Assembly (NCBI GenBank): GCA_902535365.1
Contig: CACATF010000001.1
Location: 132,077-196,076, forward strand
Origin: an uncultured SAR86 cluster bacterium
GTDB lineage: Bacteria > Pseudomonadota > Gammaproteobacteria > Magnimaribacterales > TMED112
Length of the DNA: 64,000 nt
Direction of reading: 5' to 3'
Part shown: piece after piece, positions 12,413-14,626 of the stretch
How positions within the stretch are numbered: position 1 is the first letter of the stretch
How the letters are laid out: the number at the start of each line of letters is the position of its first letter
The notes under the pieces: generated by a model
What the model was told of the DNA's origin: nothing
Database searches by the model: none
The model's input: only the letters and a program-made list of their open reading frames with translations
Translations under genes and position numbers: made by a program

Positions 12413-13396
12413 TTATTTGGTAAGTGTTCCCACGATGTGAGCAATAATTTTGTATGGATCTGCATTTGAAGCAGGTCTTCTGTCTTCAAGGTATCCATTT
12501 TTCCAATTATTCTCCACATTGGCGATAGGAATTCTGATGCTTGCACCTCTATCACTTATGCCATATGAGAATTTCTCAATGCTTTGTGTTTCATGCAAAC
12601 CGGTTAGTCTTTGGTCATTGTCTGAACCATACGCAGCAATTCCCTCTTCGTGGACTTCACCAAGCTTGTCACACATTGCTGAGAAAAGCTCTTCTGAACC
12701 GTTGGTTCTCATTTCTTCATTTGAGAAGTTTGTGTGCATTCCTGAACCATTCCAGTCACCAGTTTTTGGTTTTGGATGGATGTTAACACCAACGCCAAAC
12801 TCTTCTGCAATTTTATAAAGAAGGTAACGGCTTACCCATAAGTCATCGGCAGCTTTGATGCCTTTTCCAAAACACTGATATTCCCATTGGCCCAAAGCTA
12901 CTTCAGCATTGGTTCCTGTTAGATGAATACCAGCAGCCAAACATGCATCAAGATGTGCTTCAGAGATTTCTCTACCAGAAACATTGTCTGCACCAACACC
13001 ACAGTAATAGTCTCCTTGTGGTCTAGGCTCTCCCTTTTCCCAACCTAATGGTGAGCCATCAGGATTAGTAAAGAAGTATTCTTGCTCAAATCCAAACCAC
13101 CACTCATCTGTAACTACTTCTGCAGCAGCAGCTCTTGTATTTGATGGATGTGTTGTATGATCTGCTGACTGAACCTGACACATAACTAAATAGTCAGAAT
13201 ATACAGGGCTCTCATAAGTTTGCACTGGAAGTAAAAGACAATCAGAGCTTCCACCCTCTGCTTGTTGTGTTGACGACCCATCAAAAGACCAACCAGGTGC
13301 TGACTCTTCATCAGTAACCTTGATTTTGCTTCTCATGGAAGGCTCTGGTTGATAACCATCTAACCAGATGTATTCATATTTATTCAAATCACCCAT
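12413..13396 (-). CDS. glnII: Glutamine synthetase, type II (eukaryotic-type GSII)
   Basis: YIWLDGYQPEPSMRSK, PGWSFDGSSTQQAEGGSSDCLLLPV, WWFGFEQEYFF, NIHPKPKTGDWNGSGMHTNFS, GRRPASN-type (EDRRPASNADPY). Confidence 0.97.
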   Translation of the reverse strand: MGDLNKYEYIWLDGYQPEPSMRSKIKVTDEESAPGWSFDGSSTQQAEGGSSDCLLLPVQTYESPVYSDYLVMCQVQSADHTTHPSNTRAAAAEVVTDEWWFGFEQEYFFTNPDGSPLGWEKGEPRPQGDYYCGVGADNVSGREISEAHLDACLAAGIHLTGTNAEVALGQWEYQCFGKGIKAADDLWVSRYLLYKIAEEFGVGVNIHPKPKTGDWNGSGMHTNFSNEEMRTNGSEELFSAMCDKLGEVHEEGIAAYGSDNDQRLTGLHETQSIEKFSYGISDRGASIRIPIANVENNWKNGYLEDRRPASNADPYKIIAHIVGTLTK

Positions 13397-13455
13397 TATG
13401 GCTCCTTAATAAAAGTTAATAAAAATTTTATGCATTTTGTTCTGCAGGATTTTTT

Positions 13456-13480
13456 GAAGTTAAACTCGATCGTGTTTAAC
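13456..13480 (-). promoter_or_regulatory. Candidate riboswitch expression-platform hairpin
   Basis: Minus strand GUUAAAC-ACGAUCGA-GUUUAAC (perfect 7-bp stem) immediately 3' of aptamer; 3' arm can also pair with aptamer 5' flank AAGUUAAA. Confidence 0.5.
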
Positions 13481-13483
13481 GCA

Positions 13484-13533
13484 CGCGTTCCTTCGGCTTT
13501 CGCTTACTTCCGTCTTCTAGTAGAAGATGAACG
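13484..13533 (-). promoter_or_regulatory. Glutamine riboswitch aptamer (glnA RNA motif-like)
   Basis: Minus strand CGUUCAUCUUCUACUAGAAGACGGAAGUAAGCGAAAGCCGAAGGAACGCG: P1 CGUUC/GAACG, P2 UCUUCU-ACU-AGAAGA, conserved GGAAGUA and CCGAAGGAACG; lies about 90 nt upstream of glnII start. Confidence 0.88.
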
Positions 13534-13647
13534 ATTTTAACTTTATTACCCAATAGGGCCCCTTTTTAACCATGGAGTATGGTGCAAGTTATAAATGCTA
13601 ATTAATTTTAAACTGTTTTAAATTGTCTTTGCAACTGAAAGTAAGTT

Positions 13648-14223
13648 TTATGAGAAATGCTTGAGGATAATTGGAATTTTTGACTCAAGATCATCAAAAC
13701 TGTGAGAGCCTCCTTCATCAATTTCAATGTCGGCACCCTCAAAATATTTGGCTCCATAACGATAATCTAAGGTTTCATCGCCAGTTTGCAGCAGAACAAG
13801 ATATTTTGCTGGATCAGGGTTTTGAATAAATATTTCTTCAAGACTATCTACCCATTCTTGATCAATAAAATATGTTTCATTTGTGTTTGGATTTGTGTTT
13901 TCCCCTCTATCATTTTCAAAAATCTTATAAGCCCATACCGCTGGGTTAATCATTGCAGCTTTGATATTGTGTTTTTCTGCAAGAAAGCATGAAAAGTAGC
14001 CACCCAGTGAGCTGCCAATTAAATGAACGCTTCTTTCTTGTAATTCTTTATCAATGATTTGGCTTAGTTGCTCTATAGCTTCTCTAGGATGAGATTTTAA
14101 AGTAACAGACAATACCTCATAGTTATTATTATCTTTTAATTCACTAATCAGCAGCTCAGCCTTTCGAGCTTTTGCATGCGAATTCCATCCGTGCACATAA
14201 ATAATGAGATTAGGTTTTTTCAT
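13648..14223 (-). CDS. YqiA-family alpha/beta hydrolase (esterase)
   Basis: LIIYVHGWNSHAKARKAE, LIGSSLGGYFSCFLAEKH, INPAVWAY. Confidence 0.88.
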   Translation of the reverse strand: MKKPNLIIYVHGWNSHAKARKAELLISELKDNNNYEVLSVTLKSHPREAIEQLSQIIDKELQERSVHLIGSSLGGYFSCFLAEKHNIKAAMINPAVWAYKIFENDRGENTNPNTNETYFIDQEWVDSLEEIFIQNPDPAKYLVLLQTGDETLDYRYGAKYFEGADIEIDEGGSHSFDDLESKIPIILKHFS

Positions 14224-14626
14224 AGAAGTCATTAGTGAGAATCATATCAAGAACTTCAGTAAAAAACCGATTCTGTTGAGATTTTTCATCGACTGATTTT
14301 GGAAATTTTTCAAACTCGAAAGGAAATTGATTTGGTGAATAGCCATTGAATCGTGATACTTCACATAACTCAACATCATGATAAACATTTGCTTCGAAAA
14401 TTAATGAATTTAGAAGAGTAGTATCAAGATTAGAAAACCTTAACATCATATTTCCAGTATGTTTTGATAGCGCAATATACTCAAATTCTGCATTGAAGCT
14501 TGTTTCTTTGCTGGTAGATTTGAGTACCAGTTGAGAATTATTAAACTCACGGAAAATTTTTTTTATCCGGACATAATTTGCAGAACTAATTGCTAGTTGG
14601 TGGTTATTTTTTTTGTATTCATCCAT
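14210..14626 (-). CDS. DUF1249 (YqiB-like) protein
   Basis: NYVRIKKIF, VYHDVELCEVSRFNG typical of DUF1249; start refined to 14626. Confidence 0.8.
   Translation of the reverse strand: MDEYKKNNHQLAISSANYVRIKKIFREFNNSQLVLKSTSKETSFNAEFEYIALSKHTGNMMLRFSNLDTTLLNSLIFEANVYHDVELCEVSRFNGYSPNQFPFEFEKFPKSVDEKSQQNRFFTEVLDMILTNDFYEKT

Follow-up and report, generated by a model that had tools for sequence, protein, structure and literature searches.

The type I glutamine riboswitch (glnA RNA motif, RF01739) was reported in 2010 from marine metagenomes as an aptamer class that occurs in tandem copies and is linked to genes of glutamine synthetase (GS), GOGAT, PII, and ammonium transporters (Weinberg 2010, PMC2864571); tandem copies of glutamine riboswitches are counted in PMC9481103. 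A 2018 review describes the class as restricted to cyanobacteria and assigns the links with GS, PII, and amt to uncultured strains (PMC6316151). Every glutamine riboswitch that this review describes as tested is an ON switch, and the characterized cyanobacterial ones act on GS-inactivating proteins (PMC6316151). Glutamine-responsive control of GS and AmtB is also the task of the GlnD-PII-NtrBC-sigma54 chain acting on glnA, a protein cascade that senses glutamine through GlnD. In this Ntr system, high glutamine normally represses both GS and AmtB.

The window considered here, a stretch of 64,000 nucleotides from a bacterium of the SAR86 cluster, an abundant group of the ocean (family TMED112, which goes by the name CHAB-I-7 in PMC11582366), contains on its minus strand a complete type I aptamer, with P1, P2, P3, and both cores, ahead of a type II glutamine synthetase (GSII) gene. 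As in the marine metagenomes (PMC2864571), the SAR86 copies of RF01739 precede GS and ammonium-transport genes and occur in tandem, but they differ from the described members in that their host is gammaproteobacterial, that the platform downstream of the aptamer is conserved, and that the predicted sign is OFF. The cyanobacterial gifB / IF17 switch belongs to the same aptamer class and likewise places GS under the control of glutamine; however, it activates a GS-inactivating protein, whereas the SAR86 switch would act directly on GS. With the Ntr cascade, the locus shares the task but not the machinery, which is absent from the window's genus. The element is probably a glutamine-repressed (OFF) riboswitch that replaced the GlnD-PII-NtrBC-sigma54 control. 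The element itself belongs to a known aptamer class; what a specialist would find surprising is the regulatory exchange. If an RNA of ~50 nt has taken the place of a nearly universal protein network, as it apparently has, the case would illustrate regulatory streamlining cleanly, and metagenomic glutamine riboswitches so far without a host would gain one. A search of the open-access literature yielded no paper that treats glutamine riboswitches or the loss of Ntr in SAR86.

The identity of the aptamer is directly established. In a cmscan search of the 64 kb with all Rfam 15 models, RF01739 matches positions 13482-13535 (minus strand) with a score of 62.2 bits (gathering threshold 35; E = 2.3e-11), and no other riboswitch exceeds its threshold in the window. 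The first-pass annotation, which had suggested such a covariance-model scan, assigned the element to the glnA/Downstream-peptide RNAs; the glnA type is borne out, whereas the type II glutamine riboswitch (Downstream-peptide, RF01704, Glutamine-II), despite its related aptamer core, falls short of its cut-off (16.5 of 33 bits). The minus-strand sequence quoted there is found letter for letter, and the arms of the three helices are as it gave them: P1 at 13533-13529/13490-13486, P2 at 13527-13522/13518-13513, and P3 with its GAAA loop at 13503-13502/13497-13496, with the core CGGAAGUA at 13512-13505 and GAAG at 13494-13491 (all on the minus strand). The A/C mismatch that it noticed at the base of P3 (A13504 and C13495) is real and occurs in 1 of the 21 related leaders, the window's own, the remaining ones having A-U, G-C, or G-U at this position.

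In the covariance-model alignment, every strongly conserved aptamer position agrees with the consensus, the departures being confined to P2 and P3, and the binding-core segments GACGGAAGUA and GAAGGAACGC are identical to the RF01739 consensus. Folding energy is uninformative (minimum free energy z = 0.55 for the single sequence) and would not flag the element, so the evidence consists of the covariance model and comparative covariation. RNAalifold recovers P1, P2, and P3 unaided from 21 non-identical leaders. Changes on both sides affect 5/5 pairs of P2 and 3/3 pairs of P3, while P1 is invariant; none of 500 shuffles reaches these eight compensated aptamer pairs, and all slid versions score lower. 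That the element is a genuine type I glutamine riboswitch aptamer is essentially certain, and its ligand, by analogy with the known RF01739 family, is presumably L-glutamine.

The GSII gene (12413-13396, minus strand) encodes 327 amino acids and is identified by Pfam (Gln-synt_C/N), NCBIfam, PDB relatives, and its position in the GSII tree. Its best NCBIfam match is GlnII with 382.6 bits, under the curated cut-off of 500 bits and far above all other GS models; among proteins of solved structure, its closest relatives are without exception glutamine synthetases of the same length class (344-423 residues), most of them of the eukaryotic type. The first-pass annotation had thus named the enzyme type correctly, and its other statements on the locus agree with the data as well: the distance to the ATG (13396), estimated at ~90 nt, measures 85 nt from the 3' end of the aptamer; the supposed gammaproteobacterial host is a SAR86 bacterium, as are the nearest named GSII loci; and the co-occurrence with GSII, for which it had proposed a survey of relatives, is conserved, the riboswitch lying upstream of 21 of 76 distinct GSII proteins (20 distinct GSII leaders). 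A Shine-Dalgarno sequence of GSII, AAGGAG, is located at 13402-13407 (minus strand). Further upstream on the same strand, a dyad ACCAU-ACUCC-AUGGU (13569-13583), 5' of the aptamer, is kept in most GSII leaders according to the alignment of the 5' flanks and could constitute a promoter element or part of the leader RNA. A possible sigma70 promoter, TTGCAA-18-TAAAAT (13605-13634, minus strand), is no better than chance (1 found, 0.9 expected in shuffles). Neither the sigma54 motif TGGCAY-N5-TTGC nor NtrC dyads are visible in the window's leader sequence. The upstream neighbor is a UPF0227 gene (13648-14232, minus strand), which serves as a marker of the slot in relatives.

The exchange of the riboswitch with sigma54/NtrC sites is observed directly in this slot. 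Among the relatives, the UPF0227-GSII intergenic region contains the riboswitch in some cases and a sigma54 promoter accompanied by NtrC-like boxes in others, but in no case the two together; the promoter signals of the Ntr cascade persist at the same place in related SAR86. Of the 61 GSII upstreams without the riboswitch, 22 have the sigma54 motif (0.07 expected) and 34 carry NtrC-like TGCAC dyads (0.12 expected), against 0/18 riboswitch upstreams in both cases. As the UPF0227 neighbor flanks all 22 sigma54-GSII loci and 16 of the 18 riboswitch-GSII loci (the other two end at a contig end), the control region has changed at the same slot.

The leader also stays in place when the enzyme under it changes, an argument that the leader is the functional control element. 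In one genome (G008), the GSII protein falls into a distant clade and appears to be horizontally acquired, while its leader (L014) is of the usual kind; in two others (G007 and G020), a GS of type I, as judged by its N-terminal sequence, follows the leader. The riboswitch-GSII genes are scattered over several places of the GSII tree, and a single origin is rejected, since the tree needs several label changes. As GSII seems to be horizontally transferred, the age of the switch cannot be read from the tree of this gene. Eight loci labeled Pelagibacteraceae or Pelagibacterales (L064, L066, L077, L087, L098, L101, L102, and L111) encode GSII proteins ~81-83% identical to that of the window; these genes seem to lie directly 3' of a PII-like gene and might reflect horizontal transfer or mislabeled genomes.

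The protein chain to which these promoter signals belong is missing from the genera in which the riboswitch precedes GSII. RpoN, full-length NtrC, and GlnD are absent from 12/12 genomes of the window's genus (each at least 80% complete, with G006 and G012 in single contigs) and from 7/7 genomes of genus g10, i.e., 19/19 in total; PII is absent from 12/12 and 6/7, respectively (18/19). Genus g10 also has riboswitch-GSII. The 70 other genomes of families f2 and f3 contain GlnD in 66, RpoN in 63, and full NtrC in 63 cases. Incomplete genomes could hide genes, but four independent absences in 12 genomes make this unlikely. The coincidence of loss and riboswitch in two lineages is strong by number of genomes, with few independent events; the sequence comparisons thus leave the proposed replacement of Ntr control well supported, but correlational. 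In family f4, genera g4, g7, g8, and g12 have lost RpoN or retain a DNA-binding fragment of ~80 residues; NtrC is kept in g4, g7, and g12, and in g8 it is a protein of 258 amino acids without the AAA+ domain. NtrC of these four genera may work without sigma54.

The place of the aptamer before nitrogen-assimilation genes extends beyond GSII. A second RF01739 copy in the same genome (G000:C2:44429-44484; 1501-1556 in L002; L003), scoring 57.3 bits, precedes genes of a Gcw_chp porin and an ammonium transporter (Ammonium_transp). The leader of this copy differs from the GSII leader: it contains a AAGGUUUGACCC motif and, in some relatives, a U-run, possibly a terminator. RF01739 exceeds its cut-off in 30 of 41 close relatives and in 48 of 116 genomes of the order, often in tandem. 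Beyond the order the element is rare: of 275 sampled genomes of the class, 3 exceed the cut-off, and two of these belong to the window's genus. The third (G389) represents another small-genome lineage, in which the switch stands ahead of both glutamate synthase genes. In this gammaproteobacterial genome, the riboswitches (L145 and L148) are located before gltB-like and gltD-like genes and are followed by a strong hairpin, CACCAAACUUU...GAGUUUGGUG. Three tandem glutamine aptamers lie ahead of a porin gene of the ammonium-transport type in two genomes (L126 in G067 and L128 in G063), and a tandem glutamine riboswitch precedes a gene resembling TonB-dependent receptors in L127 (G067) and L139 (G034), which suggests a receptor for a nitrogen-rich substrate. 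In L146 (1501-1637) and L153 (1304-1440), the aptamer departs from the usual form by a long P3 region that separates the conserved halves by ~79 nt, while its core is intact; this variant scores 42 bits with permissive filters and 28-34 bits, below the cut-off, with fast filters.

One leader type is common to GSII, type I GS, ammonium-transport porins, and the TonB receptor. In this type, P1 is followed on the 3' side by the block CGUUAAAC-N-CGAGUUUAACUUC and then by UCCUGCA...UGCA. Leader alignments delimit in the window a conserved switch region, GUUAAAC-N8-GUUUAAC-UUC (13456-13480, minus strand), and the conserved UCCUGCA...UGCA element between it and the start codon (13431-13449, minus strand). 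The GUUAAAC and GUUUAAC arms form a hairpin (13480-13474/13465-13459, minus strand) that is 100% paired in 21/21 leaders, with G-U pairs as the sole changes. Alternatively, the aptamer strand GAAGGAAC (13494-13487) can take the 3' arm of the hairpin plus CUUC as its partner, which would open P1. This alternative helix is 99.4% paired and almost invariant across the 21 leaders, so covariation neither proves nor refutes it; in 13 to 14 of the 21 leaders its energy is below that of the bound fold, and in about a third it is the less stable structure. The hairpin with the bound fold and the alternative helix are mutually exclusive, as a riboswitch requires, and the alternative helix is the predicted switching partner.

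Two readouts were considered and rejected, which counts against an OFF switch: sequestration of the Shine-Dalgarno sequence, the accessibility of which is nearly equal in the bound and free folds (mean 0.27 vs 0.28 by folding of 20 leaders), and an intrinsic terminator, none being found in the window's leader. The UCCU of the UCCUGCA element could pair with the Shine-Dalgarno sequence; a general UCCU:AGGAG anti-SD helix is nevertheless rejected, with UCCU missing from leaders L012, L014, L017, L018, L023, L027, and L095.

In the proposed model, plentiful glutamine, the product of GS, would bind the aptamer and lock P1, and production of GSII would be lowered; the second copy would exert the same OFF control on the porin-AmtB operon of ammonium uptake. 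When glutamine is scarce, P1 would open and the strand GAAGGAAC would pair with the downstream GUUUAACUUC, allowing GSII and AmtB to be made. In the window's genus, the RNA would thereby stand in for the lost glutamine-sensing chain of GlnD, PII, NtrBC, and sigma54. The OFF sign is predicted because the regulated genes, GS and AmtB, are normally repressed at high glutamine.

A genuine riboswitch might also act in the opposite sense, with glutamine raising GSII as in the cyanobacterial gifB and Prochlorococcus cases. Activation is what the review describes for the tested members (PMC6316151), and the equal accessibility of the Shine-Dalgarno sequence and the lack of a terminator provide no derivable OFF readout. 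Still, an increase of GS and of ammonium uptake in the presence of ample glutamine would be poor control logic, the cyanobacterial ON switches drive a GS inhibitor rather than GS, and many small-peptide genes of SAR86 carry a platform (SD-pairing hairpin) different from that of the GS/Amt group; we regard an ON switch at GSII as unlikely. Nor is it probable that the riboswitch constitutes only an added layer, with GSII mainly under a regulator bound at the 5' dyad ACCAU-N5-AUGGU and Ntr not replaced: the riboswitches examined in the Ntr-keeping genera lie on genes other than GSII, none of the 18 riboswitch-GSII upstreams contains sigma54/NtrC sites, and a non-exhaustive search found no replacement regulator, even though both leader types of the window's genus have kept the dyad and many SAR86 genera keep GlnD, NtrC, and RpoN alongside glutamine riboswitches on other genes. 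A degenerate or chance look-alike without ligand binding, to which the P3-base mismatch unique among 21 leaders might point, is highly improbable for an element that scores 62.2 bits with all core residues intact and is strongly conserved inside an otherwise diverged intergenic region. The preferred reading, an OFF riboswitch in place of the Ntr cascade, predicts that the sign is OFF, that the RNA is the only glutamine sensor, and that sister lineages encode peptide inhibitors of GS.

A wider version of this reading has about an even chance of being correct: in streamlined SAR86, the riboswitch would have replaced the whole cascade at the same slot more than once, as an OFF switch, while other SAR86 would switch ON small putative GS-inactivating peptides with the same aptamer. 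A second platform type in SAR86 relatives is an SD-pairing hairpin, GCAUCUUUUUAAAAGGAGAUG, ahead of basic peptides of 43-54 amino acids. These peptides (L028, L029, L121, L122, L134, and L125, the last with 43 residues) follow tandem glutamine riboswitches, and several end in KKDVFFPYYL or a similar sequence; the three that were scanned match no Pfam family, and a role as GS-inactivating factors is possible. A division into OFF switches on GS/Amt and ON switches on inhibitor-like peptides is attractive, although putative. The pairing of a riboswitch with DUF4278 in SAR86 relatives is that of the GS-inactivating IF17 family in cyanobacteria. There are seven such riboswitch-DUF4278 pairs, in which DUF4278-like peptides with YRG repeats, ~52-56 amino acids long where read, are encoded just 3' of glutamine riboswitches; DUF4278-like peptide loci are L124, L131, L137, L146, L152, and L153 (genomes G078, G087, G023, G074, and G041), along with loci in G042, G043, and G091.
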